A stretch of 64,000 bases of DNA, taken from assembly GCA_016188675.1 (NCBI GenBank), contig JACPHJ010000093.1:1-64000 (forward strand), written 5' to 3'. The position numbers were made by a program, and so were the translations under genes. The notes under the pieces are model-generated. The model ran no database searches, was not told where the DNA came from, and was given only the letters and a program-made list of their open reading frames with translations. This document shows positions 23,997 to 49,115 of this stretch, one piece after another. Origin of the DNA: Planctomycetota bacterium. Lineage in GTDB: Bacteria; Planctomycetota; Brocadiia; Brocadiales; Brocadiaceae. Within the stretch, counting starts at the first letter, position 1; every line of letters starts with the position of its first letter.

Positions 23997-24249
23997 TTTT
24001 GTGCGCTCCTTGGTATTTTCTGGCTGACAGGGCAAGCTTGTCAGATTGAGAATAAATAATTCTTGGGTTAATAAAATTAAATAGTTTAATTTTAATGAAC
24101 AATCTTTAAAACTAAAGACCGTCTCCGGTTGAAAAAATTTACAAATGAAACTCTATAACGGGTAATTAGTTTAACAACGCATTTCAAAGGTAAACTAAAT
24201 CAAGGCGACCGGCTTGAGTTCGGTTGGATTGAACTACAAACGGCTGTGA

Positions 24250-27988: not shown

Positions 27989-29463
27989 TATGCATTCCTT
28001 ACAATATCGTAGATATTCCGAAGTACTTCACGCAACAAAGGCGGTACGTAAAAACTGATAATCAGAACAAAAAATAAAAGGAAAAGCATAGCTGCTGTGG
28101 TAAATTTACTTGTTTCGCCCTTTGAAATATTCATAGTGGGTGTACCAAAGATCATCCTGTACATATTATAGATAAATCCTATAAAAATAAGTGTAATGCA
28201 TACTATAAGCACGGATGAGAATACAATGATGAATGAATTTCCACTTGCAAAACCACCAGCAAGAACCAAAAACTCACTAACATATATATTGAGAGGGGGA
28301 GTGCCAGTAATGGCAAATACTCCTATTGCCAGGATCGTCCCTGTAACAGGAAGAGTTTTAATGACACCTCTTATATTTTCCATTTCCGTCGTTTTGTATT
28401 TTAAAAATAGGTTTCCTGCGCAGAAAAATAAAAGTGATTTTGCTACGGCATGATTAAATGTATGCAGTTCCGCACCATAAACACTATACATACCGCCAAA
28501 ACCTATTCCAAGAGCAATAAACCCTATGTGCTCTACACTGCTAAAGGCTAACAGGCGCTTATAATCCTTTTGTATAAGAATAAACGGTATCGAAACAATG
28601 ACGGAAATGAGCCCAAAAATCATCAAAAGGGTACACGAATACTCGCTTCCAACACATTTAGATGTAAGGATATGGTATCGAATGATGCCGTACATTGAAC
28701 AATTTATTAACACACCAGAAAACAAAGCACTTATTGGAGAAGGCGCCTGGCTATGTGCATCAGGAAGCCATGTGTGCATTGGAGCCAAACCTGCTTTTGT
28801 TCCATATCCTACCAGAACAAAAAGGAATGCAAGCTTCATTAAACGCGGTTCGAATTTATCAGCCACAGCTCGTAAATCAGACCAGTTCAATGCATATCCA
28901 ATTTCACCAAGAACACCTTTCGCTGAATGATAGGTTAATATAACACCAAAGAGAGCTAACGTAATGCCGACAGAACAGAGTATTATATATTTCCACGCTG
29001 CCTCTTGATGTTGTTTTTTATTGTAAAAACCCACTAAAAACGTAGTTGCTAATGTAGTACCCTCAATGGCAACCCACATAACGCCCAAGTTGTTTATCAC
29101 GCAGACCAACAACATGGTAAAAATAAACATATGGAATAGGAAATAGTACCATTGCAGTTTCTTTTCTGATATTACACCGTCATGTAGTTCTGCCTCCATA
29201 TATCCTGCCGAATACAGGGCTGCCGCAAATGATACAATAGTAACAATCTGCGTTGTGAGAATACTTAACGCATCTACATAAAAGAAATTATTAAATCCCT
29301 GAATTGAATGGTAGGTATATATATTATAATTGAGATATATATTATAGACTAAAGCTATAAAACTACCGGCAATACTTATGTATTTTGACACACTGTGTTT
29401 TTTTATAAAAACACATATAGTAGCTGTTACTACCGGTATAATCAAAAGTAGTAAAATTATCAT
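27988..29463 (-). CDS. hyfF: HyfF-like membrane subunit (NuoN/M/Mrp family)
   Basis: The 491-aa membrane protein has about 14 TM segments and the antiporter-family signature residues: VAIEGTTLATTFLV (TM5 glutamate), GYGTKAGLAPMHTWLPDAHSQAPSPISALFSG (TM7 lysine) and FNHAVAKSLLFFCAGN (TM8 His/Lys). These residues form the proton channel in complex I-like systems. It is a second antiporter-like subunit besides the HyfB-like protein. It is directly adjacent to the HyfE-like gene (TAG then ATG) and overlaps the large subunit gene. Confidence 0.88.
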   Translation of the reverse strand: MIILLLLIIPVVTATICVFIKKHSVSKYISIAGSFIALVYNIYLNYNIYTYHSIQGFNNFFYVDALSILTTQIVTIVSFAAALYSAGYMEAELHDGVISEKKLQWYYFLFHMFIFTMLLVCVINNLGVMWVAIEGTTLATTFLVGFYNKKQHQEAAWKYIILCSVGITLALFGVILTYHSAKGVLGEIGYALNWSDLRAVADKFEPRLMKLAFLFVLVGYGTKAGLAPMHTWLPDAHSQAPSPISALFSGVLINCSMYGIIRYHILTSKCVGSEYSCTLLMIFGLISVIVSIPFILIQKDYKRLLAFSSVEHIGFIALGIGFGGMYSVYGAELHTFNHAVAKSLLFFCAGNLFLKYKTTEMENIRGVIKTLPVTGTILAIGVFAITGTPPLNIYVSEFLVLAGGFASGNSFIIVFSSVLIVCITLIFIGFIYNMYRMIFGTPTMNISKGETSKFTTAAMLFLLFFVLIISFYVPPLLREVLRNIYDIVRNA

Positions 29464-30129
29464 CTATTCCTTGAGCTCCTTTAAGAAGTCAGTATCAATG
29501 GTGTCAAAGGATTCCTTGATTCTATATACATAAATCCCCATAATAATTACGCTCACCAGGATATCGAAAAACAATCCTAATTCTACAATGAGCGGCATAC
29601 CGTAAGACGTGGACAATGCGGCGAAAAACATACCGTCTTCCATCGTAATAAGTCCAAGAATTTGGGTAATAGCCTGCTTTCTGCTTATCATGACGTAGAA
29701 GCCAAGAAGAGTAATGGAAAGCGCGATGGGTAAGCAGTGCCGCATGAAGGTATTTTCAAATTGGATAATATTTTGTGTAGAATAAAAAGCAATAAGGATA
29801 ATACCGCAAGCCAGTAAAAGAGATAACGTATAGTTAATATAAGATTCCTGCTCTTTTTTGATATTAATTTTTTTGACGATATAGAAAAGAAAACCAGGGA
29901 TAACGATTACTTTTAGTGCCAATGAGATGACGGTAGTAATATAAATATGGTGGATACCGGAAAAACAGGCAATCAGACCGCTTGTCAACGTTAATATAAA
30001 AGATCGAAAGGCATAAGCCCATATACAATTCCTTAATCTGCTTGTGCCAACGAGTACTATTGAAGCCATAAGCATCAAAACTGCAAGAATATCAATCGTC
30101 CTGGAATTTACAATAATCTGTTGCGTCAT
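29464..30129 (-). CDS. hyfE: HyfE-like membrane subunit
   Basis: The 221-aa protein has about six TM segments. Its order and size match HyfE, which joins NuoK-like helices with extra helices and is found only in hydrogenase-4-type complexes. It includes a buried glutamate in LGLITMEDGMFFAAL (about 150-165) and another in VELGLFFDILV, as expected for the K-like helices. It lies between the HyfC-like and HyfF-like genes with 6-base or zero spacing. Confidence 0.84.
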   Translation of the reverse strand: MTQQIIVNSRTIDILAVLMLMASIVLVGTSRLRNCIWAYAFRSFILTLTSGLIACFSGIHHIYITTVISLALKVIVIPGFLFYIVKKINIKKEQESYINYTLSLLLACGIILIAFYSTQNIIQFENTFMRHCLPIALSITLLGFYVMISRKQAITQILGLITMEDGMFFAALSTSYGMPLIVELGLFFDILVSVIIMGIYVYRIKESFDTIDTDFLKELKE

Positions 30130-30135
30130 TATTTA

Positions 30136-31086
30136 TTACCTTACTACATACAGCGATATAATAGCCAGAATAGATAAAATAAATGCTGTGCCTAAAAGGT
30201 TTGGGATTCGAAACAACCTGAGCTTTGCAAAAGACATTTCTACTATAACAATCAAAAAGGCAAAAAAACCAATTTTAACAACATAAAGGGCAACTGCGAT
30301 TATTAAGCCGGGAAAGGTAAGGCCGTCTGCAATACCCCACGGTAAGAATGTATTAACCAGTATCGTTAGCAACAAAAGCAATTTCATTAAAGATGCCCAC
30401 TCTGTCACCGCCAAATAGCGCCCGGAAAACTCAAGGACCATTCCTTCGTGTATCATTGTCAGTTCAAGATGAGTAAACGGATTGTCAACAGGAATTCTGC
30501 CTGCTTCTGCGATAATAACAACGACGAATGCGGCAAAAGCCAGGATAAGTGACGGGTTCAGCAGGAGAATGCTATCATTAAGCAGTGTATTTGTTATATT
30601 ACTTAAATTGGTAGAACCGACTGTTAAGGCAACGGTAAATATCGACAGTATCATGGCAGGCTCAGCCATGGAAGATACCATCATTTCCCTACTTCCACCC
30701 ATACCACCAAATGCACTGCCGGTATCAAGTGAAGTTAAAACAAGGAAAAACCTTGCCAGTGCAAATAAATATATGATAAGTATTATATCGCCGGTAAAAT
30801 TCAGTGGGACTTGGGCTGACAAGACAGGTACGAGTAATGAGATTATTAAAATCGAAACAAACGTTACATATGGCGTTGCTCTAAAAATCCAGGAGGACGT
30901 TTCAGAAACAACAGCATCTTTCTGGAGCAATTTTACCAGATTATAGTAAGGCTGAAAAATGCTGGCGCCTCTTCGGCACTGCAGCCTCGCCTCAATTTTA
31001 TTAATAAACCCCTTTACAAGAGGCGAAAATCCTACGATAACAACAAGCTGGAGAATAGGAAGAATAATATTTGAAGTCAAGAGCAT
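30136..31086 (-). CDS. hyfC: HyfC/HycD-like membrane subunit (NuoH type)
   Basis: The 316-aa polytopic protein corresponds to HyfC/HycD, the NuoH-like subunit that links membrane and peripheral arms. It has the GFINKIEARLQCRRGASIFQPYYNLVKLLQKD-like first loop, RIPVDNPFTHLELTMIHE near 185-202 and EFSGRYLA, which are hallmark H-type loop motifs. About eight TM segments. It lies 6 bases from hyfE-like and 15 bases from the hyfB-like gene. Confidence 0.88.
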   Translation of the reverse strand: MLLTSNIILPILQLVVIVGFSPLVKGFINKIEARLQCRRGASIFQPYYNLVKLLQKDAVVSETSSWIFRATPYVTFVSILIISLLVPVLSAQVPLNFTGDIILIIYLFALARFFLVLTSLDTGSAFGGMGGSREMMVSSMAEPAMILSIFTVALTVGSTNLSNITNTLLNDSILLLNPSLILAFAAFVVVIIAEAGRIPVDNPFTHLELTMIHEGMVLEFSGRYLAVTEWASLMKLLLLLTILVNTFLPWGIADGLTFPGLIIAVALYVVKIGFFAFLIVIVEMSFAKLRLFRIPNLLGTAFILSILAIISLYVVR

Positions 31087-31101: not shown

Positions 31102-33135
31102 TTATTTTCCGACAAATATAATCAAAATTATCAGTGTTATAAAGATATAGGTAAGGTAAATATGAATACTGCCTGTATGTACCCACCTTACCTTGGTAGA
31201 TATATCCAAAACAAACCGGGAGACAGGGCCGTAAAAATACCTTTCGAATATCGGTGAAACCTCACTAATATAGGAAATAGACTTAACAAAATAATTAGGG
31301 ACAGAATATTCGGTACTTACTTCGCGCCGAGGCCTGTATAAATTACTAAAGATCGTTTTAAATGGTCTTGTAAAGGCAGTGGCAGTGTATTCCAGTCTGG
31401 GCTCAGGGGATCTTCCACATGTCCAGGTTTCATAGGATTTTCTTATAAACCCTGGTCTTATTAAAGTCAGTGCACCAAATGTTATTGCCAAAAGAATCAA
31501 GCCAAAAACGGCTGCGCTTTTCGACGATAGTTCCGTAAAATTGGTACTGACGGTCTTCATTTGCAACCAATCATAAGAAGTAAGCGCATTCACAATATTT
31601 ATGCCAAGAATTTGCGTGTTCACACGGTTGATAGCAACCATAATCGTTGAAGGGAAAAGGCCCATAAATACACAAAGCCCGGCCAAAAGTCCCATACTCA
31701 CATACATAACAACAGGGACTTCTTTGGCATGTTTTGCATGTTCTGTGCGGGGCATCGCAAGAAATGAAATCCCAAACGCCTTAATAAAACAGGTAGCGAC
31801 CAATGCGCCTGTTAAAGCAACGACAGCGCCGCAAATTATAGTTACTATTTTTATGATAACAGATGGGATGTTAAAACCATTTAACAGTGACTGGAATATA
31901 AACCACTCGCTTATAAATCCATTTAAAGGCGGTATGGCGGAAATGGATAATGCAGCAATAAGGAATAGTGGTGCAGTGATCTGCATCCGTTTTATTAACC
32001 CACCCAATTCCTCAATATTTTTTGTATGTGTTGCATAATAAATATTTCCTGCACCACCAAAGAGTAAACTTTTAAATACGGCATGATTTATTAAGTGATA
32101 AAGCCCAGCCATCAGTGCCAGAGAGGATAATGCCATCAGATTGTATGACTTAAAAATCATTGATAATCCAATACCAATAATGATGATACCATTATTTTCT
32201 ATACTACTGTATGCAAGTAAGGTCTTTATGTCCCTTTCCATAAGGGCATAAAGAATACCCAGTATAGCAGAAGAAGCGCCAACCATAAGAACCACGACCC
32301 CCCACCACGGCGGGCAAGGCGCTAAAAACTCAAAATAGAATCGTATAAAACCATAGATAGCCGTTTTAATCATCACGCCGGACATAACCATCGAAACATT
32401 GCTGGGAGCGGCAGGATGCGCCATGGGAAGCCAAAGATGTAACGGGAAAATGCCTGCCTTGATGCCAAAGCCAATTATCACCAAAAAGAACACTATGTTT
32501 TTGTATATCATTGGCATGCTGCCGCCGATACGCCTGAAATCATCAAAACCAAAATCCCACGTCCCTACATGAGCAAACATTATGAAAAAGGCACTAGCTA
32601 GAAGCGCCGAACCAACATGCGCCATGATAATATAAGTAAAACCTGCCTTCATATTAGCAGGATTTTCATGCTCAAAAATCACAAGGAAGAAAGATACTAT
32701 TGTCATCAACTCCCATACAATCATAAACACTACCGCATTATTAGCAGTAACCACAAGGAGCATAGAGACAAGGAAGAGATTGTAGAGGAATCCCAAAAAT
32801 CGGGTATCACGTTTGTTAATGTATAATTGTGTATAACCTATTGAGTAAATGGCAGCTACAAAACTGATGGATGATATGGCAAGAATAAAATACGAGGAAA
32901 CAGAGTCTATTAAAAAATTATATTTAATAATGGCGTGATAGATTGAGAAATCAAGACGTACCGTAGCGCCGGTAGAAAGCAAGATTACCGCCGTTGCAAT
33001 ACTAAAACAGGAGGCAATAGCAGCTAAAACAAGCGATATGAAATTTCCAATCCTCTGCCACTTGGATAAACATAAGGCAAACAGGCCACCCGCAAGATAC
33101 AAAACTAAAGATACGATAAACAGATGTTCAGCCAT
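31102..33135 (-). CDS. hyfB: HyfB-like antiporter-type membrane subunit
   Basis: The 677-aa protein has about 14-16 TM segments and belongs to the NuoL/Mrp family: FMIVWELMTIVSFFLV (TM5 glutamate), GFGIKAGIFPLHLWLPMAHPAAPSNVSMVMSG (TM7 lysine), YSSIENNG and LYHLINHAVFKSLLFGGAGN (TM8 His/Lys). A C-terminal soluble/amphipathic region (about 560-650) resembles HyfB. It is preceded by a 163-base gap that contains a possible promoter, so the hyf-like genes may be transcribed separately from dabAB as well. Confidence 0.88.
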   Translation of the reverse strand: MAEHLFIVSLVLYLAGGLFALCLSKWQRIGNFISLVLAAIASCFSIATAVILLSTGATVRLDFSIYHAIIKYNFLIDSVSSYFILAISSISFVAAIYSIGYTQLYINKRDTRFLGFLYNLFLVSMLLVVTANNAVVFMIVWELMTIVSFFLVIFEHENPANMKAGFTYIIMAHVGSALLASAFFIMFAHVGTWDFGFDDFRRIGGSMPMIYKNIVFFLVIIGFGIKAGIFPLHLWLPMAHPAAPSNVSMVMSGVMIKTAIYGFIRFYFEFLAPCPPWWGVVVLMVGASSAILGILYALMERDIKTLLAYSSIENNGIIIIGIGLSMIFKSYNLMALSSLALMAGLYHLINHAVFKSLLFGGAGNIYYATHTKNIEELGGLIKRMQITAPLFLIAALSISAIPPLNGFISEWFIFQSLLNGFNIPSVIIKIVTIICGAVVALTGALVATCFIKAFGISFLAMPRTEHAKHAKEVPVVMYVSMGLLAGLCVFMGLFPSTIMVAINRVNTQILGINIVNALTSYDWLQMKTVSTNFTELSSKSAAVFGLILLAITFGALTLIRPGFIRKSYETWTCGRSPEPRLEYTATAFTRPFKTIFSNLYRPRREVSTEYSVPNYFVKSISYISEVSPIFERYFYGPVSRFVLDISTKVRWVHTGSIHIYLTYIFITLIILIIFVGK

Positions 33136-33298: not shown

Positions 33299-35260
33299 CT
33301 ACGACGACCGGTATGCCATCTCATAAACTGATTTTGAATGCGGTCCGAGGAACACGCGCGCGTACATCCGGATGAGGGACAGTCCGTCAATGACGTAGCT
33401 CAGCGAAACCATTATGGCCAGTATAACCTGGTCTTCACGGATGTGGATAAAGATCAGGTCTTCCCCCACAAAGGTCGGCGAGATCGGAAAACCTGATACC
33501 CCCAGACATGCCAGCAGAAAAACAAAGGCAAATTTCGGATGGCGGTACGAATGACCGTGAAACTGGTCCATGTCAATGCTGCCTTCGTGAATGCGCAGCC
33601 ACCGGAGACAAAAGAACCCTACGATTCCTGCCACGACAATACCGCTTAAATAAAGACGATCCTCATTAAAATAGAACCGTTCATTGACTGAAATAGACAG
33701 CGCAATCCAAAAGTGGTGCATCATCACCAGCATCCAGCTCAAACGCGCCATTTTTCTTTCGGCAAACGATTTCAACACCATAATCAGGGCGATGGAACAG
33801 AACAGGTAAGGAAGAGATTTTTCAACGGGTTCCGGAAGCAGTTCCCTGAAGTAAATAAGAGCCACGCCTGCGAGATAAGCCGGGATACCGAAATAGACAA
33901 TCCGACTGAGAGTAAGAAAATCCAACCTTTTTCCCAACCGCTTTAATGGATTCCACATATAACGATACATCAGTGAATCAAGGTTCCATTCTTTCAGACA
34001 CCACATATATATGGTATATTCAATCTTTTTGGGAAGAGAATCTTCGTAAGTGTGCACGCGGGGTTTGAAGTTGTAGAACTGTTCCCGTATCAGGTAACTC
34101 ACCACCGAAGGAGAAACTAAAAGCTGGTACGCCCGCAGGAAGGCGTTTCCGGCAAAGTGAACAAGGGCAACCTCCTCTAAACCAGCAGCTATTTCAATGA
34201 ACATAATCCCAATTTGTGCAGCAGAAGCGTAAGCAATCTGGGTTTTTATCGTTGACTGCACCCGAGCAATCCCCGTTGCAATGATACTGGTCGTTAATCC
34301 GATTACACCGATAATAATCCGAACGGCTAATTGATGCTCCCAAAATGGCATCGTACGCAGCAGTACAAATACGCCTATGTGAACGGAAAGACTACCGTAA
34401 AAAATGGCGCTGGATGGAGTGGGACCTTCCATGGCGCGCGGCAGCCACGAGGTAACCGGCAGTTGCGCCGACTTTGCTATCGCTGACATCAATATCGTCA
34501 GGGAGATAAATAAGCCCATAAGTGTGTTCGTTTGGAGGTGTGCGTTTACCAATTCATGATTACTCAACTGCAAAAAGGATACATTGCCGTGCCATAGGTG
34601 ATGGCTCAGCCACATGGCAAGTATCAGCCCTATGTCGCCAAGGCGATAAACGGAAACTACTTTTACGGCATTTTTTGCGGGCAGATAGCGGTCACGGTAA
34701 AAGGCAATCAGCAGGAAGGAAGAGATGCCCAGCATTTCCCACCCGATAAAAAGCGTTTCCATGTTGCCGGAGAAAACGACAATATTGTACCCTAGGTAAA
34801 ATAGGAGAATCGTACTGAAGAACCTTTTATAGCCTTCTTCACGATGCAAGTAATAGCGGCTGTAAGCGGCAACCTGGAAAAGGACGATGTCGCCCACTAT
34901 CAGGTAGGTAGCTGTAACTTTGTCAAAATAAAAACTAAAATAAAATGAGTATTTGGAAGTTTGGTAGAGCACCCATCCCGGCAGGTCCAGGATAGGATAA
35001 TGCTGTACAAGCCAATATATAATAAATCCGGCAGCGGTCAGCAAATGCAAACCTACGGTGGTGAAAGCTACGCAGGAAATAACCTTTTCATTTTTCTTCG
35101 GAATTGACCAGCTTACCAGAAATCCTAATATCGGGAGCAGAATAAAATACGGAAGGAACATTGCCATGTCTCCCGTTTTATACATCGTCGATATATAAGA
35201 TGATAAACTTTCATTCGGTATTTGAGGTGATTGCATAGTTCCATTCTCCACGGAAATCAT
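33299..35260 (-). CDS. dabB: DabB-like proton-translocating subunit, copy 1
   Basis: The 653-aa protein is a NuoL-family membrane protein of the kind found next to DabA: about 13-14 TM segments, IGWEMLGISSFLLIAFYRDR near 172-191 (TM5 glutamate) and SWLPRAMEGPTPSSAIFYGSLSVH near 275. In characterised DAB systems, DabB is thought to bring in cations (H+ or Na+) to energise DabA. Several possible ATGs lie near the N-terminus. It follows dabA copy 1 by 60 bases and precedes the hyf-like genes by 163 bases. Confidence 0.86.
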   Translation of the reverse strand: MISVENGTMQSPQIPNESLSSYISTMYKTGDMAMFLPYFILLPILGFLVSWSIPKKNEKVISCVAFTTVGLHLLTAAGFIIYWLVQHYPILDLPGWVLYQTSKYSFYFSFYFDKVTATYLIVGDIVLFQVAAYSRYYLHREEGYKRFFSTILLFYLGYNIVVFSGNMETLFIGWEMLGISSFLLIAFYRDRYLPAKNAVKVVSVYRLGDIGLILAMWLSHHLWHGNVSFLQLSNHELVNAHLQTNTLMGLFISLTILMSAIAKSAQLPVTSWLPRAMEGPTPSSAIFYGSLSVHIGVFVLLRTMPFWEHQLAVRIIIGVIGLTTSIIATGIARVQSTIKTQIAYASAAQIGIMFIEIAAGLEEVALVHFAGNAFLRAYQLLVSPSVVSYLIREQFYNFKPRVHTYEDSLPKKIEYTIYMWCLKEWNLDSLMYRYMWNPLKRLGKRLDFLTLSRIVYFGIPAYLAGVALIYFRELLPEPVEKSLPYLFCSIALIMVLKSFAERKMARLSWMLVMMHHFWIALSISVNERFYFNEDRLYLSGIVVAGIVGFFCLRWLRIHEGSIDMDQFHGHSYRHPKFAFVFLLACLGVSGFPISPTFVGEDLIFIHIREDQVILAIMVSLSYVIDGLSLIRMYARVFLGPHSKSVYEMAYRSS

Positions 35261-35320: not shown

Positions 35321-37819
35321 CTACTTTAATACATAGACGGGTAAATTATCAATATTCGCTTCTATCAGCGGCGTTACATCCGAAACCGTTTCGATTGTTT
35401 GCCTGAGTGGCTTGTACGGAATGAATGCCCCCTCCTTAAATCGGAAAAGTTCCTGCGTTTCCGGATTAATAACAACCAGTCGCACCCATTCATTGATAAA
35501 CCATTCATAGGTCGCCGCCACTGCTTGAATTGTTTTCAGCACAACATGGGGGAAATGCTCTACGATGACCAGGAGACGGACGGGGTCATGCACCTCAATC
35601 ATTTGGCTGGGGAGTCCTGGACGCAAATCCCCGTCAGCGCCATTAGCAACGCCAAACAATCCCATGACATTGTGGGGAAGTTTTGTCCCTGCGCCCAATT
35701 TCTGGTTATCCACCCGTGAGAAAAAATATTCAAGGTTAATGCCGCCGCACACGGGGGCAACGGCATTTAAAATATTAAGCAGGTATTTCCCCTCCGGATC
35801 GACCCGGTAATCAAGTGAGTTCATAAATGCCCGCCGGTCTAAAAACAGGTGCGATATCAGCGACCTTCTGCCGACAACGCACAGTGCGTTCGTGGCATGG
35901 TTTAGTTCCGGACGCGGTTCGAACAGAGATACTGATCGCCGTAAAATTTTTTTATGGATGGTTTTCGGATGCAGTCTGGTGTTAATGGAAACAAACCTTC
36001 TCGATCGTTCCTTGGCATTGATGTCCAGCGCCTTATTAAAGGTTTTCAGGTTGATTTGATGTCGTTTCTGGTTGCCAGGCGACAGAATGCCTTCATCAAA
36101 AAAACCAATTTCGTCGCGGGTGGTATCATGCAGACCGCCCACAAACTGTGTCTCAGGCGGTATGGCAATTCTCCGTATGCCCAGAATCTTTCTCACTTCA
36201 GGGTGATTAAGTATATGGCACATCACTCGTGAGTTGACAGAGCCTGCCCTTCCAGAGCAAGCGCCACAATCATAAGCTGCAAAGTGTGGATTATTCACAC
36301 TGCTTGAACCATGACCGATAATATACACGATCGGGGCAAAATTTTTCACCAGTCCAATGCTTTTTAGAAGTCCTTCGGCACGGTTTGCCATCTCTTCGAA
36401 TGTGTATCCTACTTGCAGGCCGTTTTCCTTGTTATCCGGATGGGTATTTTCGATTATAAGCTTTGAAAACTTGTCCATGTGGCGGAAGGAGTATGATGCA
36501 GCAGGTCCCATCGTTGGCCTGAAAATGTTGAAAAATAAACGAACCGCCGACCAGAACCCAATCGTATGGGCAATCAGCGCCCCGCCAAAAAAAGAATGGG
36601 CATATTTGGAAAAATACACGTCCTTCTTCCGTTCGCTTTTGCTCTCAACCTGCTTGATTAAATATTTAGGCGTCACGGGCCATGGGCACAGCTTTGTATA
36701 GAACTTTCCACCTTCGGGCTGGTAGAAAAACTCCACGCTGAAGAATCCGGCCGACGCAAAGGTTTCACTGTCGGGATCCATTTTTTCAATGTAACGACGG
36801 AACGAGCACTCCCGGTCGTCGATGCAAAAAACCGCCTGGAAACTGGCGTAATTTACCCTGTTTTCTTCATGTTTTTTTGCGATGAGACCTGAGAGGACGT
36901 CGTCATAATAGCTCCATTCGAACGCCTCCTGCCAGATTTGTCTGATTTCATGCAGTTCACGTTCCGGGATCTCTGCGAAGAGATCGACAGGCTTTTCCAT
37001 AAGGCTTTTTCTGAGTGGCTGCCAGTTTTTGCCAAAGCGAAAATCAAGCGCATCTATTTCCAGCAGGAGTTCAAATATAATCAGTTCTTTGAGGGTAATT
37101 TGCTTTCGGTCCAGCAGAGTTTGCGGTACATCCTCCACTGTGGAAACCATTCCTGACCAACCCTGGTGAGCAAACTGCTGGTCAAATAAGTATTGCTTGT
37201 AAAGCGATTTGTCTCCAACCAGAATGTCCAGCAATGCTTCGATGGTACATTCACTTTTCAGTAACAGTCTTCTGGGCCAGTCTGTTCTAAAAAAGCTGGT
37301 AAAACTGATTCGTTCCATTTCTTTGATGGAGGCGAGGAAACCCTCATGCCAGACGGGAAACTTCCATATCGAAATGCCCTGGTCCAGGTAACTGCAAAGG
37401 ACGCGGAAGAGCAAAGGATGCACCAGCGAATCCAGGTCTATCTTGTAATGCCTTTTCCAGTTGGCGCGCAAGGAGCCTATCCGTGGCGACGGGAGTTCGC
37501 CGTATTGCTTGAAAATCGCATACTCCTTCCATTCCTGCATAAGGGCAACGCCCTTTCGTTCGGCAATCACTTGTTCAAGCACGTCTTCCCGGATGCGGCC
37601 CGATTTGTAAAGGGATCGGAATTCGTCAATGGAGAGACTGACGTTATAACCGAAGATTTCCGAAGCGCGGCTTGCGCCGTCGTGGAATTTCAGGTTCTGA
37701 AATCCGTGCAGTGTATTATGATGGATAAAGTCTTTTAAAGGAGACTGAGCTGGTAAATAGTGCTTCAGCTCATGGACTACTGCATGTTCATCGAAAGAAG
37801 AATCGTGTGGTTTCGTCAT
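35321..37819 (-). CDS. dabA: DabA-like inorganic carbon uptake protein, copy 1
   Basis: The 832-aa protein belongs to the DabA (formerly DUF2309) family, a peripheral subunit distantly related to beta-carbonic anhydrases. Zinc-site residues are present: C332 and D334 in FCIDDRE, H503 in IGHGSSS, and C518 in YDCGAC. The H-to-C spacing (15 residues) equals that of the studied DabA from Halothiobacillus. DabA-DabB pairs drive one-way hydration of CO2 to bicarbonate in the cytosol using an ion gradient. It is the first gene of the long minus-strand run dabA-dabB-hyf, and starts 692 bases from a divergent dabA paralogue. Confidence 0.92.
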   Translation of the reverse strand: MTKPHDSSFDEHAVVHELKHYLPAQSPLKDFIHHNTLHGFQNLKFHDGASRASEIFGYNVSLSIDEFRSLYKSGRIREDVLEQVIAERKGVALMQEWKEYAIFKQYGELPSPRIGSLRANWKRHYKIDLDSLVHPLLFRVLCSYLDQGISIWKFPVWHEGFLASIKEMERISFTSFFRTDWPRRLLLKSECTIEALLDILVGDKSLYKQYLFDQQFAHQGWSGMVSTVEDVPQTLLDRKQITLKELIIFELLLEIDALDFRFGKNWQPLRKSLMEKPVDLFAEIPERELHEIRQIWQEAFEWSYYDDVLSGLIAKKHEENRVNYASFQAVFCIDDRECSFRRYIEKMDPDSETFASAGFFSVEFFYQPEGGKFYTKLCPWPVTPKYLIKQVESKSERKKDVYFSKYAHSFFGGALIAHTIGFWSAVRLFFNIFRPTMGPAASYSFRHMDKFSKLIIENTHPDNKENGLQVGYTFEEMANRAEGLLKSIGLVKNFAPIVYIIGHGSSSVNNPHFAAYDCGACSGRAGSVNSRVMCHILNHPEVRKILGIRRIAIPPETQFVGGLHDTTRDEIGFFDEGILSPGNQKRHQINLKTFNKALDINAKERSRRFVSINTRLHPKTIHKKILRRSVSLFEPRPELNHATNALCVVGRRSLISHLFLDRRAFMNSLDYRVDPEGKYLLNILNAVAPVCGGINLEYFFSRVDNQKLGAGTKLPHNVMGLFGVANGADGDLRPGLPSQMIEVHDPVRLLVIVEHFPHVVLKTIQAVAATYEWFINEWVRLVVINPETQELFRFKEGAFIPYKPLRQTIETVSDVTPLIEANIDNLPVYVLK

Positions 37820-37858
37820 ACTGGCAAATAATATTTACGTATAGGAATTTCAATCATT

Positions 37859-37886
37859 GTAAAGGCAATTCATCAATTGCCTCTAC
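37859..37886. repeat. Near-perfect palindrome GTAAAGGCAATT...AATTGCCTCTAC
   Basis: A 12-base arm with one mismatch and a 4-base loop (CATC). It lies about 40 bases before the dabA copy 1 ATG on the minus strand. It could be a hairpin in the dabA leader, a regulator site or a dispersed repeat. Confidence 0.6.
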
Positions 37887-37913
37887 ATACACAATAAAAA
37901 AGTTGTCGAAGTC

Positions 37914-38050
37914 CTAATTTAGATGACAAACAGATTCTTCGTGGAGTTTACACTGAACAAAGTGAATGTGATCAGAATGACAAACGGCGTCATTTTGAGG
38001 AGGTAACACGGCAGAAGAATCTCTCACTTTGAAATTCCTATATGTCAAGT
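37914..38050. repeat. Dispersed repeat-like stretch in dabA gap
   Basis: The segment translates on the minus strand as RDSSAVLPPQNDAVCHSDHIH, close to the 'SERSEES'-type pseudo-ORF repeats often seen between genes. AGAAGAATCTCTCACTTTG at about 38011 is typical. It is not a gene. Only one copy was found in this window. Confidence 0.45.
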
Positions 38051-38511
38051 CATTGGTTCTAAAAAAGGTTTTTTCAATAAATTTGGATATTAAAGGGTAA
38101 ACAGGAGTCATGGTTTATTATGCCATGCCGTTCATCGCAATTAAGTTCATTACTATAGCAAAAACAAAAAAAAATTACAAGTCTTTAAATAATTCTTGCA
38201 TTTTAAATTTATTCATGTTTATAATTTTGTATTTAGAATGCGGTGAATTATAAATGATCAGCAAATGCTTTCTCTTTTGGCCTTGCACAAACAAAGGCGC
38301 CAAGGGTTTATTATAAATAAAAAATAAATATATGTATGGTTTTGTTAAAAAGTGAATTTTTGCGGGGGTATTTTTTGTCTCTCCCCGCTGCAACAGCAAC
38401 CTTTTCTTATTATGACGCGAAGGGCTTGCGGTATTTGGGCGATTTGTTGTCTTGTCATCAGTTTGAATTCTTTGATGAAACTGGGTATTTTTTCTCTCAT
38501 AAGCAAGAATA

Positions 38512-41178
38512 ATGTCTGACAAGGTTAAACATGCAATCGAACACGCAAAGCACCTGATGCCTGATCAAGGCCCGCTTCCATTCTTTGTTCATCACAACAC
38601 CATTCACCACTTCGAGAGATACGACTTTTTTGAAGGCGTTAAAAAGGCGGGACGTGCATATGGCGCCAAGGCCTTTATGTCCGAAGAAGAGTTTCTCCTG
38701 GCGTTTGAACGGGGACGCATCTCAGCGAATGTCCTTTTGAAGAATATCAGGGAATATATTGAACGTCATCAGCTTGCTATTCAGCCTGAAGTACTTTTTA
38801 GCTTAATGACAGAGAAGCCCCACAACCGTCCGGTGCCGGACGCGCGGATACTGCAGTTTGTTAATAACACTGCTTATCAGCGTCCCGGCTATTACAGGGA
38901 GGCGATTCAGGCTGCCCACAATATTGACATTGACGAGCTGAATATTGACATTGACGAGCTGACAGGACCTATTTTCTTTAAGTTTATGTCTTCGTATTTT
39001 GACTTCGGCCTTGCTTACTGGCCCATGCCGCACCGGGAGAAGGGGTTGTGGCGTTGCTTTTGTGACTTTTACTCGAAAAGCGGTTTCTTAAGTACAAAAT
39101 TTGTTAAAACCTTAAAAGAAATCATCGCCTTAGTGAGGCAGTATCAATGCAGCGATGCCACGTCGTTTCTGCTTCAAGTACTGGCTATTCCCAATGTACA
39201 ACTTGATGATTATATCTTCCGCACACTCTATCGTTACAAGGGATGGGTCGGCACTATAAAAGCGCTGGAATCCACGGTAGAGTGGGTTCCAAATCATGAT
39301 ATAAAAGCTGAGTTTGCTGAGGTCGTTACTGTCATTCTCGTTCTGGAGTTAGCAGCCATTGAATCCATCCGCGCGATACCGACCTTGGAAATACCCGTCT
39401 TTAAGCCGGAGCCTTTGTATGACCCGTATTTTGTAGCCTCTATTGTGAACGCCCTGGGCATTAATAATAACGCTCCGTTTCCCAAAGAGGTTACCCAGTT
39501 TACCGATGAAAATCGCCAGGAGATTTGGCAGCGCGCCTATGAGGACACCTTTTACAATCAGTTCCTTACCGCATACAGGCAGTGTGCTGTTGTGGCGAAG
39601 CCAAAGTACAAACTCCGGAATTACCAGGTATTTTGCTGTATTGATGACCGTGAAGAATCTTTCCGCCGCCATCTGGAGCAGATAGACCAGGGCGCAGAAA
39701 CTCTCGGCGCAGCAGGGCATTTTGGACTTGACATGAGATTCAAGGCCGCGCCAGAGAAGCACTACCGCAAGATGTGCCCTCATCCTTTAGTAACGCCATC
39801 GGTGCACGTCTACGAAAAGGTGGTAAAATTAGAAGATGCCATGCCAAAAAAACTTCAGTTCTACGGAAGAGTGCAGTGGGCGATTACACAGGCATCCAAA
39901 ACCCTTTTCGGGAGTTTTGTTCACACGATTTTCAGTGGTCTTGTCAATCTCCTTCCGTATATAATGGATATCCTTTTTCCCAAGTACAGCTCCAAGCTGC
40001 GACGGTATCTGGCTGCCCACGAACCCAAAACACAATTGATTTATAAAAAGGAAACTCATGAAAACGAAAACGGATGGAGTCTGGAAGACCGCATTGCCCG
40101 TGCAACGGCAATACTCAAAGGCGCCGGGTTTTCGGACAATTTTTCGCCCTATGTGTTTGTGCTGGGACATGGCTCCAGCAGTCTTAACAACCCCCACGAA
40201 GCCGCCCACGACTGCGGGGCATGCGCCGGCGGGCGCGGAGCTCCTAACGGACGCCTTTTTGCGACTATTTGCAACGAACCGGAAGTGCGCGCAGGCCTGG
40301 CTAAAAACGGCATAAACATCCCGGATTCAACAAGGTTTATAGGCGGATATCACAACACATGCAGCGACGATGTCCTCCTTTTCGATCTTCCTAACCCTAT
40401 AGAGCCACGCCTGCAAAAGTATATAGACGCCCTCCGCCGTGCGGCCGCTCTGGACGCAAAAGAGCGGTGCAGGCGCTTTGACGAGGTTAAAACCGACCTG
40501 TCAGAAAAGGCATTCGCCGATTATGCACACGGGCGGGCAATGGATTTTACCCAGCCGAGACCCGAATACGGTCATTGCACCAATGCAATTGCCATTGTAG
40601 GCCCGAGGTATCTGACGAGAAACCTCTTCCTGGACAGGCGTTCATTTTTGATTTCCTATAATTATAAGGTGGACCCTGCCGGAAAATCCCTGAGAAACAT
40701 CCTCGGAGCGGTAGGTCCGGTATGCGCGGGAATCAACCTTGAGTATTATTTTAGCTTTATTGACAACGAGCACTACGGCTGCGGCACCAAGCTGCCCCAT
40801 AATATTACCTCACTTTTGGGAGTAATGAACGGTCATCTCAGCGACCTGCAGTTGTGCTTACCCTGGCAGATGGTTGAGGTGCACGAACCTGTCAGGCTGA
40901 TACTGCTTGTTTGCTGCAGGCTGGAGATAATGGAAACCATCCTCGGCGAGGCATTCGGATATACCGCTCAACCCGGGCACTTTCAGTGTCTCGTGAAACA
41001 CAACTGGATTACCCTCGCGGTTCACGATCAGAATCAGGAAGAGATATTCCTGTGGAAAGGCGGAAAGGACGGCAGATTTGTACCTTTTGATGAAACGGCA
41101 GATGTTCCTGTATACGAGAGCGACGATCCGCGGTTTTTCCTTGAACAGGAGCATCTATTATTCGGGCAAATTATCTAG
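38512..41178 (+). CDS. dabA: DabA-like inorganic carbon uptake protein, copy 2
   Basis: The 888-aa protein is a second DabA family member with the zinc residues C376 and D378 (CIDDRE), H553 (LGHGSSS) and C568 (HDCGAC). Sequence similarity to copy 1 is evident at the motifs but low elsewhere, so the two pairs diverged long ago or came separately. Residues 137-150 are a perfect NIDIDEL duplication caused by a 21-base tandem repeat. The ATG at 38512 has no strong Shine-Dalgarno. DabB copy 2 starts 9 bases downstream. No hydrogenase-like genes follow this pair. Confidence 0.92.
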   Translation: MSDKVKHAIEHAKHLMPDQGPLPFFVHHNTIHHFERYDFFEGVKKAGRAYGAKAFMSEEEFLLAFERGRISANVLLKNIREYIERHQLAIQPEVLFSLMTEKPHNRPVPDARILQFVNNTAYQRPGYYREAIQAAHNIDIDELNIDIDELTGPIFFKFMSSYFDFGLAYWPMPHREKGLWRCFCDFYSKSGFLSTKFVKTLKEIIALVRQYQCSDATSFLLQVLAIPNVQLDDYIFRTLYRYKGWVGTIKALESTVEWVPNHDIKAEFAEVVTVILVLELAAIESIRAIPTLEIPVFKPEPLYDPYFVASIVNALGINNNAPFPKEVTQFTDENRQEIWQRAYEDTFYNQFLTAYRQCAVVAKPKYKLRNYQVFCCIDDREESFRRHLEQIDQGAETLGAAGHFGLDMRFKAAPEKHYRKMCPHPLVTPSVHVYEKVVKLEDAMPKKLQFYGRVQWAITQASKTLFGSFVHTIFSGLVNLLPYIMDILFPKYSSKLRRYLAAHEPKTQLIYKKETHENENGWSLEDRIARATAILKGAGFSDNFSPYVFVLGHGSSSLNNPHEAAHDCGACAGGRGAPNGRLFATICNEPEVRAGLAKNGINIPDSTRFIGGYHNTCSDDVLLFDLPNPIEPRLQKYIDALRRAAALDAKERCRRFDEVKTDLSEKAFADYAHGRAMDFTQPRPEYGHCTNAIAIVGPRYLTRNLFLDRRSFLISYNYKVDPAGKSLRNILGAVGPVCAGINLEYYFSFIDNEHYGCGTKLPHNITSLLGVMNGHLSDLQLCLPWQMVEVHEPVRLILLVCCRLEIMETILGEAFGYTAQPGHFQCLVKHNWITLAVHDQNQEEIFLWKGGKDGRFVPFDETADVPVYESDDPRFFLEQEHLLFGQII
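38920..38961. repeat. Exact 21-bp tandem duplication in dabA copy 2
   Basis: AATATTGACATTGACGAGCTG occurs twice in a row, in frame, giving NIDIDELNIDIDEL. The two copies are identical, so the duplication is recent or maintained by slippage. Confidence 0.95.
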
Positions 41179-41187
41179 GAGTACGGT

Positions 41188-43218
41188 GTGAACGAAAAAA
41201 TTCTGATTACCTACCTCGTATATTATTTCACACTGTTCCCGATAACCAAGATATTCTTTGTAAATGTCCACAATTTTATCAGAAAGCAGGAGCACGACGA
41301 GTATTGGATTCGCAAGGTGGTCCTGTGGGGAAACGTTAGTGACTTTATCCACGTCGCAGTTGCCCTGTGTTTTTTGGGGTTTACCGATATTACTGTAGAG
41401 ATTAAATCCTTCTGCTTCCTTGGTTGGCCATTCATTGTGCATTGGAACACCCTTACGTTTGTATTTCTGGCATTCACAACCACAATCATTGCAACTATAG
41501 GCCATTTTTCCCTGTTTTATCTGCATCGTGATGCGTATTATCATAAGTTCTTTTCACTCTATTTCATTTTCCATCTGGCTATAAAACTTATAGTTCTCAG
41601 TTCAGGCTCCACCTTTTTCTTTATGGGGTGGGAGCTTCTTGGGTTTTCCTCAGTGCTTCTGATAGCTTTTTATGAACACCGCCCCAATCCGCTTAAAAAC
41701 GCCATGCGGGTGCTGTTTATTTACGAGACTGGAGATATCTTTTTGCTTGCCCTGATATCGCTGCTGCTCTTCTTCCACATCGAAGACATGACCCGTCTGG
41801 CGTTGATTCAGAAGCACGGTTACGCTTGGGCAATGGTCTTGCTGATTATAGCATGCTTCTTTAAGTCGGGTATTTTTCCATGGACATGGCTGCCGAGGGC
41901 AATGGAGGGACCTACTCCGTCCAGTGCGGCTTTCTACGGTTCATTGTCAACTCATATCCCTATTTTTCTCCTCTTGCGCTTCTGGCCCAGTGAGTGGTCT
42001 CTTCCGGGGTATTGGCCTGAAGTATGGACGATCTCGCATCCGGCAAATGCCATTGCCGCTGCCGTTGCCATTTGCGCGTTTTCGGCCTTCATTACAACCC
42101 ACATGAGCCGGCAGCATGCCGATGCCAAGAATACCATTGCGTATGCCACCATGACGCAGTTAGCTATTATCTACATCGAAATATTCTTCGGACTGCGGAC
42201 GCTGGCGTTAATCCACGTGGTGTCACACGGCATATATCGCACATTTGAGTTCCTGCGCACCCCGTCATTGCTGCATTTTTATCATACCATGGAGACACGG
42301 CTTCCCAAGATGACAAACACCGGGAAACACTTTAATACGCTGCTTCCTGAAGGATTAAGAAACTGGCTCTATGCGCTCTCGATCAAGGAGTTTGGCTTTT
42401 TCCTGCGGACATTCGACTTTATTGACGGGTTTCTTGGTTTAAAATTTCTCCGCTTCGACGGGAAAGCAGTGAGACGTTTCGCCTGGGTGGTTGCTGCCGG
42501 TTGGTCAGCCTTTAGTGTAGTAATGTTCCTTCTAGACAGAAACACTTTTAATGTGGAATCTGCTGCTAACGCCAGAGGAGATGCCGTTACGGCATTAATT
42601 ATCAACTGGAAATATTTTAACGCCAAAGATGAGATATTGCTGGCGCTGGCAGTCGGTTTCAGCGTGCTGACCTTCTGCAATATCAGGAAAGTAAGGATGT
42701 TTTTTGTGACCCTCACGTGCTCTGCGGCCACGGTTGGAATAGAACATTCTCTGCTCCTGCTGAGGCATTTGGACGCATCTGGCCAGCTCTACTGGATCGC
42801 AGTAACTGTCCTTGCCGTTGCATTTGCGGGGCTTGCCTATTACTCAGTATACAATTTTACCCATGGCAGTGAAAATTATTCAAGTTATACAGCCGGGCTT
42901 TCCCGTTCTACCCTTGCAAATTTATTGCTGTTCATAGCCGCTCTCTCCATTGTTGGCGTGCCCGGACTCGGCATTGTGGTGGCATGGGAATACCTTCATC
43001 ACTATACGGCACAGGTTGCGCCGCTTATGGTAGTAAAGGGATTTTTTATCATTAAGTTAGATACCCTGCTGGTCTTCCTGTTTTACTTCAGCAACTTCCT
43101 CGGTTTTCCCGAACACAAGGTGCAGGTATTGCATCACTACAAGCGTGACACCCTCCATCTCCGCTGGGCGCAAAAGCACTCGGAGGCGTACCCCGGTTCC
43201 TTAGAGCGAAGTCTGTGA
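41188..43218 (+). CDS. dabB: DabB-like proton-translocating subunit, copy 2
   Basis: The 676-aa NuoL-family protein has about 14-15 TM segments and the same landmarks as copy 1: FFMGWELLGFSSVLLIAFYEHR near 151 and FKSGIFPWTWLPRAMEGPTPSSAAFYGSLSTH near 228. It should form the ion-conducting partner of DabA copy 2. GTG start at 41188 with TAGGAG upstream. The two genes together form a self-contained DAB unit, transcribed away from the hyf-linked pair. The C-terminus ends in a charged tail. Confidence 0.88.
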   Translation: MNEKILITYLVYYFTLFPITKIFFVNVHNFIRKQEHDEYWIRKVVLWGNVSDFIHVAVALCFLGFTDITVEIKSFCFLGWPFIVHWNTLTFVFLAFTTTIIATIGHFSLFYLHRDAYYHKFFSLYFIFHLAIKLIVLSSGSTFFFMGWELLGFSSVLLIAFYEHRPNPLKNAMRVLFIYETGDIFLLALISLLLFFHIEDMTRLALIQKHGYAWAMVLLIIACFFKSGIFPWTWLPRAMEGPTPSSAAFYGSLSTHIPIFLLLRFWPSEWSLPGYWPEVWTISHPANAIAAAVAICAFSAFITTHMSRQHADAKNTIAYATMTQLAIIYIEIFFGLRTLALIHVVSHGIYRTFEFLRTPSLLHFYHTMETRLPKMTNTGKHFNTLLPEGLRNWLYALSIKEFGFFLRTFDFIDGFLGLKFLRFDGKAVRRFAWVVAAGWSAFSVVMFLLDRNTFNVESAANARGDAVTALIINWKYFNAKDEILLALAVGFSVLTFCNIRKVRMFFVTLTCSAATVGIEHSLLLLRHLDASGQLYWIAVTVLAVAFAGLAYYSVYNFTHGSENYSSYTAGLSRSTLANLLLFIAALSIVGVPGLGIVVAWEYLHHYTAQVAPLMVVKGFFIIKLDTLLVFLFYFSNFLGFPEHKVQVLHHYKRDTLHLRWAQKHSEAYPGSLERSL

Positions 43219-45239: not shown

Positions 45240-46265
<1,026 letters not shown>

Positions 46266-46293
46266 CTTTATTTCTATAATTTTGCCTATTTAT

Positions 46294-47490
46294 ATGGATA
46301 AATTATTTATAAAAGATATTGATGTGCGAAAAAAGAGGGTCATGGTTCGAACGGACTACAATGTGCCATTAGATGAGGACGGGAATATTACCGACGATAC
46401 AAGGATACGGGCAACCTTGCCAACCATCAATTATTTGTTGGACGAAGATGCGAAGGTAATTATTGTTTCTCATTTAGGCAGGCCGGAGGGCAAAGCAAGT
46501 CCTAGGTATAGTCTGAAGCCGGTTGCACGGAGATTACAGGGTTTCCTCAAGGAAAGGGCAAATGTAATTATGTCGGATGATTGCATTGGTCCAAAGGTTA
46601 AAAAGCAGATTGAGGAGATGCGCTGTGGAGATGTAATTGTGCTTGAAAATCTGAGATTTTACCCCGGAGAAGAAAAAAACGACCCCTCTTTTGCAAAAGA
46701 ATTGGCCAGCCTCTGCGATGTGTTTATACAGGATGCATTTGGTAACTGCCACAGGAAACACGCCTCAATGATTGGTATCGACGGCTTTGTTCCGGCTGCC
46801 GCTGGATTCCTGCTCAAGAAAGAAATAGATTATTTTGAGAAGGCGGTCAATAACCCTATGCGGCCGGTTGTCGCGCTGTTAGGTGGTGCAAAGGTTTCTG
46901 ACAAGATAAAGATTATCGAAAATCTGGCAAAAAAAATGGACAAAATCCTTATTGGCGGGGCCATGGCATTTACCTTCCTCAAGGCGCAGAGCTTTGGCGT
47001 GGGACAATCACTTGTCGAAGATAGTATGCTTGATGTGGTGAGAAATTTAATGGATATTTCCAAAAGAAACGGGACAAAATTGTATTTACCCGTTGATTTT
47101 GTTGTTGCAGAAAAATTCGATAGCCGCGCGGAAACGAAGGTCGTCCCCTTCCAGGAAATTCCGGAAAAGTGGATTGCCCTTGATATCGGTCCGGCTACCA
47201 CAAAACTGTTTACTGAGGCGCTTCAGGACGCAAAGACAATTTTATGGAACGGTCCTATGGGGGCATTCGAATTTGATGCTTTTAGCCGCGGAACGTATGC
47301 TATGGTGGACGTAGTTACCGGTTCTCATGCCTCAACCATCGTAGGCGGCGGCGACACAGACATGGCATTTCATAAATCGGGAAAGACACATGAGGTATCG
47401 TTTATTTCCACGGGCGGTGGCGCATTCCTGAAGTTATTAGAAGGTGGTAACCTTCCAGGGGTCGCTTCGTTATTGGATAAAAAAACATAA
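46294..47490 (+). CDS. pgk: Phosphoglycerate kinase
   Basis: The 398-aa enzyme interconverts 1,3-bisphosphoglycerate and 3-phosphoglycerate with ADP/ATP. Hallmarks: MVRTDYNVPLDEDG near the N-terminus (usually RVDFNVP, so a conservative variation), SHLGRPEG, FGNCHRKHASM (usually FGTAHRAHAS), ALLGGAKVSDKI near 196 and the glycine-rich VGGGDT. I use the ATG at 46294; an in-frame TTG at 46282 is possible. It follows gap by 28 bases, so co-transcription is likely. Confidence 0.96.
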   Translation: MDKLFIKDIDVRKKRVMVRTDYNVPLDEDGNITDDTRIRATLPTINYLLDEDAKVIIVSHLGRPEGKASPRYSLKPVARRLQGFLKERANVIMSDDCIGPKVKKQIEEMRCGDVIVLENLRFYPGEEKNDPSFAKELASLCDVFIQDAFGNCHRKHASMIGIDGFVPAAAGFLLKKEIDYFEKAVNNPMRPVVALLGGAKVSDKIKIIENLAKKMDKILIGGAMAFTFLKAQSFGVGQSLVEDSMLDVVRNLMDISKRNGTKLYLPVDFVVAEKFDSRAETKVVPFQEIPEKWIALDIGPATTKLFTEALQDAKTILWNGPMGAFEFDAFSRGTYAMVDVVTGSHASTIVGGGDTDMAFHKSGKTHEVSFISTGGGAFLKLLEGGNLPGVASLLDKKT

Positions 47491-47494
47491 AAAT

Positions 47495-48193
47495 ATGCAG
47501 CCGAAAATTAAGATTGCAGCGTCTATTCTCGCCGCCAATCCGGTGCGTTTAGAAGAGGAAATCAGGAAGATAGAAATGGCCGGCGTTGATTTGATCCATA
47601 TTGACGTTATGGACGGCCATTTTGTTCCAAACATCACTATGGGACCTTTTATCGTAGAAGGTATAAAACGCATTACGAAAATACCTTTGGATATTCACCT
47701 GATGATTGAACATCCTGAACGTTATGTGAAAACATTTGCAGAAGCAGCCGGGAAGGGCGATATTATTACGTTCCATATAGAAACTACAAAAACCCCCAAA
47801 GAGGTTATTTCACTAATTAAGAATGCGGGATTAAAGGCCGGCATCTCTCTTAATCCGGACACTCCGGCTGAATCGGTTGAAAACCTCCTGGATGCTGTCG
47901 ACATGGTGCTTGTCATGTCCGTAAATCCCGGTTTTGCCGGGCAAAGATTTATATCAACGGCTTTACCGAAAATTGCGAGACTGCGCAGTATTGCGCCTGA
48001 TGCACTGGATATAGAAGTGGATGGTGGTATTACAACAGAAACCATTTCTCAGGCAGTTCGGGAAGGGGCCAACGTCATAGTTGCTGCATCGGCAATCTTC
48101 AAAACAAACGATCCGTGTGACGCTATTAAAATCCTCAAACAAAAGGCAGAGCGGGCAATTAAAGAAGAATGTCATAATAAAGTGAACGCTTGA
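47495..48193 (+). CDS. rpe: Ribulose-phosphate 3-epimerase
   Basis: The 232-aa TIM-barrel enzyme interconverts ribulose-5-phosphate and xylulose-5-phosphate. It contains HIDVMDGHFVPNITMGP (metal ligands His, Asp), DIHLMIEHPERYV, VMSVNPGFAGQRF and EVDGGI near 177-182. The ATG at 47495 lies 4 bases after the pgk stop. An in-frame upstream start would overlap pgk and is not needed. Together with gap and pgk it forms a sugar phosphate cluster. Confidence 0.95.
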   Translation: MQPKIKIAASILAANPVRLEEEIRKIEMAGVDLIHIDVMDGHFVPNITMGPFIVEGIKRITKIPLDIHLMIEHPERYVKTFAEAAGKGDIITFHIETTKTPKEVISLIKNAGLKAGISLNPDTPAESVENLLDAVDMVLVMSVNPGFAGQRFISTALPKIARLRSIAPDALDIEVDGGITTETISQAVREGANVIVAASAIFKTNDPCDAIKILKQKAERAIKEECHNKVNA

Positions 48194-48302
48194 ATTTTAC
48201 AGCAAACAACAAAAACAACTTATTTTTAATGACTTTATCCCATTGTAAAAAATAACTTGTTTTTTATTTAAAAACTTATAAACTATTTAAAGGTATTTGC
48301 TA

Positions 48303-49115
48303 TTGGTTTTTTTTAGAAAAAAAAAGGACATGCCCGATGGCCTGTGGACACGATGTGACGGCTGTAAGGGCATGGTGTATAAAAAAATTGTTGAAGAAAG
48401 GTTGTTCGTTTGCCCAGAATGCAACTATCACTTTCGGGTATTCAGCAGAGACCGGTTAAAACTCCTGCTTGATGAAAACAGCTTCGAAGAGATGTGGGGC
48501 AACATGGTGCCATGCGATCCTTTAAATTTTAAGGACCGGATAACTTATCCGGAAAGGGTAGCCGCAGACCAGCAAAAAACGGGATTAAAAGAGGCTGTAC
48601 TTGTTGGCAAAGGAAAGATCAACGGCAGAGAGGTGATGGTTGGAATCACAGACTCGTCTTTTATTATGGGAAGCATGGGTTCTGTGGTTGGAGAAAAGAT
48701 TGCGAGGCTTGCGGAAAAGGCCGCAGAGCTTTGCTTGCCTTTAATCATCATTTCTGGTTCAGGCGGTGGCGCTCGCATGCAGGAAGGCGTGTTTTCCCTG
48801 ATGCAGATGGCAAAGACAAGCGCCGCCATAGCACGGTTTCAGGAATCGGGCGGTTTATATATATCAATACTAACAGACCCGTCTCTGGGTGGGGTCATGG
48901 CAAGTTTTGCTTCTCTGGCAGATATTATGATCGCTGAGCCAAAGGCACTGATAGGCTTTGCCGGTCCCAGGGTTATCCAGGAAACGATAAAACGCGCCCT
49001 TCCAAAGGGTTTTCAGACAGCCGAATTTTTACTGGAGCACGGTTTTCTGGATATGATTATCCATCGGCAGGATATGAAGAAAGAGTTATCGCGGTTAATT
49101 AATTATTTGCAATAA
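48303..49115 (+). CDS. accD: Acetyl-CoA carboxylase carboxyltransferase subunit beta
   Basis: The ~270-aa protein has the N-terminal AccD zinc-ribbon (C-DG-C and C-PE-C, within about the first 40 residues) and the carboxyltransferase domain with SGSGGGARMQEG near 156-167 and LTDPSLGGVMASF. It makes malonyl-CoA for fatty acid synthesis in a complex with AccA. The start is uncertain: TTG codons at 48297 and 48303 are possible, and I prefer 48303 for its spacing from AAAGG. The 103-base gap after rpe is AT-rich. tRNA-Asn follows 13 bases downstream of the stop. Confidence 0.93.
   Translation: MVFFRKKKDMPDGLWTRCDGCKGMVYKKIVEERLFVCPECNYHFRVFSRDRLKLLLDENSFEEMWGNMVPCDPLNFKDRITYPERVAADQQKTGLKEAVLVGKGKINGREVMVGITDSSFIMGSMGSVVGEKIARLAEKAAELCLPLIIISGSGGGARMQEGVFSLMQMAKTSAAIARFQESGGLYISILTDPSLGGVMASFASLADIMIAEPKALIGFAGPRVIQETIKRALPKGFQTAEFLLEHGFLDMIIHRQDMKKELSRLINYLQ

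Follow-up and report, generated by a model that had tools for sequence, protein, structure and literature searches.

The window (64,000 nucleotides; contig C173 of the 3.6-Mb draft genome G000 of an anammox planctomycete, Brocadiaceae) carries two dabA-dabB pairs transcribed away from each other (Table 1). By the DAB/DAC criterion, a full-length PF10070 DabA encoded beside a NuoL-like DabB, both pairs are DAB systems: DabA1 and DabA2 matched PF10070 over their full length, with 705 and 650 bits, and DabB1 and DabB2 both matched PF00361. The two divergent pairs proposed by the sequence-only reading were thus borne out, with protein similarity far beyond chance; the interval considered there, 35321-43218, begins at DabA1 and omits DabB1 (33299-35260). 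No DabA other than DabA1 and DabA2 was found in the G000 genome. On the plus strand just past DabB2 (45264-49115) there are genes for GAPDH, PGK and ribulose-phosphate epimerase and an accD-like gene.

Table 1. Features of the two-pair DAB locus and the adjoining hyf cluster (positions in the window).
Feature	Position	Strand	Remarks
SulP-STAS anion transporter	22314-24035	-	same strand as hyf, downstream of it
hyfHI fusion	25084-25875	-	2x[4Fe4S] + NuoB-like
GxxExxY (PDDEXK_3) gene	25929-26333	-	inside hyf cluster, between hyfG and hyfHI
hyfG	26396-27988	-	NuoCD/large-subunit-like; both CxxC motifs (RICGVC, LCYSC)
hyfF	27988-29463	-	
hyfE	29464-30129	-	
hyfC	30136-31086	-	NuoH-like
hyfB	31102-33135	-	hydrogenase-4 subunit B, above NCBIfam cut-off
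dabB1	33299-35260	-	NuoL-like membrane partner; E175 (NuoL E144), Y288, N372, R376
dabA1	35321-37819	-	DabA, Bacteroidota-type; zinc site C332/D334/R336/H503/C518; His641 at Leu658 position
Intergenic region between dabA1 and dabA2 start codons	37820-38511		692 bases exactly
Repeat segment	37834-38048		20-nt inverted ends
Conserved upstream element of dabA2 (~100 nt)	around 38100-38240		80-95% identical, eight anammox genomes
dabA2	38512-41178	+	DabA, anammox-type; zinc site C376/D378/R380/H553/C568; His688 at Leu658 position
dabB2	41188-43218	+	NuoL-like membrane partner; GTG start; E149 (NuoL E144), E180 (NuoL R175), Y250, R351

The pairs had been described as clearly different outside their motifs, and they are: DabA1 and DabA2 are 32% identical, and DabB1 and DabB2 are 34% identical over 324 residues only, i.e. 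half their length. In trees of 53 DabA and 53 DabB proteins, pair 1 of the Brocadiaceae forms one clade (support 100) that is nested within Bacteroidota in both trees and adjoins the loci L053 and L056 (support 99 for DabA and 98 for DabB), with the caveat that Bacteroidota bins may contain mis-binned contigs. Pair 2 forms a separate clade (100 for DabA and 99 for DabB) that includes G038, an outer member of the order. The DabA and DabB trees agree and therefore the two proteins of each pair share a common history, which answers the question of co-evolution that the sequence-only reading had left to phylogeny. A recent duplication of one pair, as the adjacency of the two copies might suggest, is refuted by the low identities and by the separate clades in both trees, and its probability is practically nil.

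Pair 1 was found in six of the 33 Brocadiaceae genomes. Five of these, from three genera, have the pairs in the divergent arrangement (G000, G017, G020, G024 and G027, the call for G027 being based on a DabA1 fragment at a contig edge). The sixth, G007, has both pairs in a rearranged, convergent orientation. Its DabA1 (L043:7376-9431) is a decayed copy, broken into two pieces with the zinc His/Cys segment lost, beside a DabB1 that is still open. Pair 1 is therefore dispensable in G007.

The DabA2 proteins of the six carriers form one clade (support 100), which excludes every sampled DabA2 from genomes lacking pair 1. In the rpoB tree, the same six genomes are scattered over several genera and a single clade was rejected (p-AU 2e-83). 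This disagreement suggests that the two-pair block has probably spread horizontally among anammox genomes; in the simplest reading, the block would have been put together once and spread afterwards.

The start codons of dabA1 and dabA2 are exactly 692 bases apart, and this gap had been read as a shared control region. When the five divergent gaps were aligned, overall conservation was weak. The conserved element of about 100 nt always lies upstream of DabA2 and is also present in G026, G029 and G030, all of which lack DabA1. Most of the repeat segment (about 200 bases) is missing from the other four divergent loci, and portions of it recur at 22 further sites in the genome, marking them as dispersed repeats; a guessed consensus of this repeat was without match. 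Matches to sigma-70 promoters in the gap were at chance level (3 observed, 3.1 expected), as were terminators, and no Rfam element was found in the 30-46 kb region of the window. Because the element also occurs in DabA1-less genomes and most of the repeat segment is missing from the other divergent loci, the gap reads as mainly the upstream region of DabA2 itself with an inserted, window-specific repeat. The length of the gap therefore stands, but its description as a shared control region fits poorly. Coordinated control of the two pairs from it is possible.

For comparison at the residue level, the DabA2 and DabB2 sequences of Halothiobacillus neapolitanus were taken from alignments to PDB 9rd0 and aligned with the proteins of the trees; the numbering of that organism is used below. 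Among DAB pumps, only its DAB2 has had its structure solved (PDB 9rd0; PMC13144422), and like both window pairs DAB2 consists of two subunits, DabA and a NuoL-like DabB. C351, D353, R355, H524, C539, H585 and D590 are kept in all 53 aligned DabAs. The window proteins thus share with DAB2 the Cys2His zinc site, the Asp353-Arg355 dyad, His585 and Asp590, and the zinc residues reported earlier for both are indeed in place (Table 1).

Two further residues are prominent in the published account of DAB2. Leu658, which stands where beta-carbonic anhydrases have their transition-state-stabilising residue (Gln/His), was reported to be strictly conserved in 150 homologues, and the finger residue Glu444 to be essential, with E444A and E444Q inactive (PMC13144422). 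Position 658 is histidine in all pair-1, pair-2 and Bacteroidota DabAs, and leucine in the long-form and outgroup proteins. In both window DabAs this histidine lies in a gapless RPExxH motif (Table 1), and it is the canonical beta-carbonic-anhydrase residue. The position of Glu444 is occupied by His in pair 1, mostly Gln in Bacteroidota and Ile/Met in pair 2, with no acidic residue nearby; the register is uncertain here, such that DabA2 of the window has Ile, or His in another register. The window DabAs also differ from DAB2 at Trp656 (Leu/Tyr) and Ser356 (Glu).

Both window DabBs had been said to keep NuoL-type proton-path motifs. This holds for the equivalents of Asp178, Lys229, Lys305 and His334, and along the proton path S256, K310 and H339 are kept as well, but H260 is changed to Tyr, S316 to Ala and K347 to Arg in both proteins, H343 to Asn in DabB1 and R182 to Glu in DabB2. 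Across the alignment, DabBs encoded downstream of dabA ('dabA-first') have Glu in place of Ile151, as does NuoL (Glu144), with Tyr at 260, Arg at 347 and mostly Ala at 316; position 343 is Asn in the pair-1 and Bacteroidota DabBs. Up to four proton-path residues are thus changed in dabA-first DabBs.

The window order is dabA-first, unlike that of DAB2. Among loci where both gene order and position 658 were readable, His was found at 117/117 dabA-first loci, which partly overlap and so do not represent 117 independent proteins, and which are biased toward DabA1 relatives; Leu was found at 9/9 dabB-first loci. An MpsB-type protein on a Staphylococcus pettenkoferi plasmid, in dabB-first order, has the Leu motif RPEWGLA. 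By gene order and residues, both window pairs and their Bacteroidota relatives belong to a dabA-first subtype of DAB. A search of openly licensed papers turned up no description of the residue signature. In the 'clade C' of the COGNAT survey of YbcC/NuoL, ybcC (dabA) lies upstream of a nuoL-like gene, and genes of the SulP and NuoM types are nearby (PMC5700660); the window matches this order and these neighbours. The clade C passages of that survey hold no established function, residue signature, full hyf clusters or anammox two-pair block; relative to these passages, what is new here is the residue-level signature, the order and neighbours having been described already. AlphaFold2 models of DabA1 and DabA2, built on shallow alignments, reached pLDDT values of 72 (moderate) and 57 (poor); confidence around the active site was low, and the models were too weak to place the histidine. 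The top Foldseek matches of the weak DabA1 model were to the beta-carbonic anhydrase CsoSCA and were not significant (E 0.02-0.03).

The sequence-only reading had noted that hyf genes follow only one of the pairs. In the window they do follow DabB1, but this position was seen there only: in relatives, hyf lies after DabB2 (G011, G022, G027) or divergent from DabA2 (G007). Hyf as a partner specific to pair 1 was therefore rejected. G018 has a HyfHI remnant behind DabB2. DAB and HyfG are both present in 11 genomes of the class and are neighbours in six of them (G000, G007, G011, G022, G027 and G053); they lie apart in G016 and G025, and three more genomes are too fragmented to judge. Other genomes, G015 among them, have hyf without DAB. 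The GxxExxY gene, which is PD-(D/E)XK nuclease-like, was also present in the hyf clusters of G025 and G027, with none seen in G011, G015, G016 or G022. In Bacteroidota, hyf adjoins 4/77 DabA1-like loci (L053, L055, L063 and L072); the Runella locus L055 has dabA-dabB-hyfB-C-E-F-G-HI as in the window, followed by the start of a SulP-like gene. At genome level, DAB and Hyf showed no enriched co-occurrence, with one case in 296 sampled Bacteroidota, namely the centre genome.

The hyfBCEFG-HI set resembles group 4 [NiFe] hydrogenase/Hyf. Brocadiaceae HyfGs form a close family of their own with both CxxC motifs, and all four Ni-site cysteines (RICGVC, LCYSC) were present in every full-length member examined (about 15 or more); sister HyfGs in other families, including dab-linked ones, have lost them. 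The dab-linked Bacteroidota HyfGs are without the cysteines and only 28-31% identical, and acquisition of hyf together with DabA1 from Bacteroidota was accordingly not supported. Unlike the situation for group 4 [NiFe] hydrogenases, neither HypD nor a full HypF was found in G000, G022, G027 or the complete genome G015, and HyfG and HypD were unassociated across 33 genomes (7/17 vs 7/16). Since these maturation proteins are missing though the HyfG cysteines are kept, Hyf in such genomes probably does not mature into a [NiFe] hydrogenase. A second hyfG-hyfHI, with a 91% identical HyfG, is present on another contig of this bin, 3 kb long (L268, G000:C32), and may come from a second strain or from contamination (bin contamination 5%).

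We consider it likely that the locus is a mobile cassette of two DAB systems, with pair 2 resident, pair 1 derived from Bacteroidota and both using a dabA-first coupling chemistry. Pair 2 would be the anammox-type DAB of the lineage; pair 1 would have been acquired intact from Bacteroidota and set head-to-head by the upstream region of pair 2, and the combined block would then have been passed between anammox genera. Each pair would most likely form one complex in which the zinc-containing, beta-carbonic-anhydrase-like DabA hydrates CO2 to bicarbonate, an activity that we infer, and in which ion flow through the NuoL-like DabB, with a putative coupling ion and direction, drives or gates this hydration. 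Because the finger Glu is missing and His stands at the Leu658 position, the predicted coupling chemistry of the dabA-first systems must differ from that of H. neapolitanus DAB2. Alternatively, His/Gln/Ile at the finger and Arg/Asn/Tyr in DabB could mean that proton coupling has been lost. The published DAB mechanism cannot hold family-wide as stated, because the dabA-first subtype is without Leu658 and Glu444. In anammox bacteria, CO2 fixation proceeds through the Wood-Ljungdahl pathway. The presence of two putative bicarbonate-accumulating pumps on a transferable block in these organisms suggests selection for the supply of dissolved inorganic carbon.

Other readings of the same data were weighed against the mobile cassette. 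That the two DABs differ in affinity or ion and are controlled alternately or jointly from one shared promoter region is a tentative possibility that we would not favour. Five genomes from three genera retain the divergent layout, and the differences between the pairs at H343 (N/H) and R182 (R/E) of DabB and at the finger of DabA (H/I) mean that kinetics or coupling may differ. Some regulatory division of labour is conceivable. Against a shared promoter, however, the conserved element is present also where DabA1 is not, most of the gap is unconserved between carriers, the promoter signal is at chance with no Rfam element, and the pairs in G007 are convergent instead. Bicarbonate symport or Na+-coupled transport of the MpsAB kind, in place of proton-driven CO2 hydration, would agree with the changed proton-path residues and with the SulP neighbours at 50/77 Bacteroidota loci. 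We regard it as quite improbable, since the zinc site and the Asp-Arg dyad are invariant and the S. pettenkoferi MpsB-type protein has the DAB2-type motif and order rather than dabA-first features.

Cyanobacterial NDH-1MS links complex-I-like membrane subunits with a CO2-hydration protein. The DAB pairs resemble this vectorial carbonic anhydrase in both components (see also PMC13144422), but the carbonic anhydrase subunit of NDH-1MS is unrelated and its ferredoxin drive is established, whereas here the link to a redox complex is one of genomic position. By analogy, a non-hydrogenase Hyf could feed redox or conformational energy to CO2 hydration by DabA/DabB. The neighbourhood of hyf and DAB in 6/8 class genomes with a judgeable position, the window's gene order in Runella and hyf beside dab at L053, L063 and L072 are consistent with this, as are the independence of HyfG from Hyp maturation and the complex-I Glu144 of dabA-first DabBs, which is absent from DAB2. 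However, the six Planctomycete cases cannot be counted as independent, hyf occurs without DAB in G015 and others, it adjoins only four of the Bacteroidota DAB loci and its single co-occurrence there is the centre genome, and Glu144 is present in hyf-less Bacteroidota too. A redox drive thus seems unlikely. An equally doubtful extension is that dabA-first DABs constitute a distinct type of energised carbonic anhydrase, whose catalytic His is near-canonical and whose gating is complex-I-like; in anammox bacteria and some Bacteroidota this type would work with a non-hydrogenase, complex-I-like Hyf, and redox state, not the proton-motive force alone, would drive or regulate the hydration of CO2. 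The Hyf linkage may offer a starting point for explaining the Hyf-like complexes that occur in autotrophs of the nitrogen cycle. In G035, from another family of the same order, two different hyf clusters lie in tandem (L278:582-15155).
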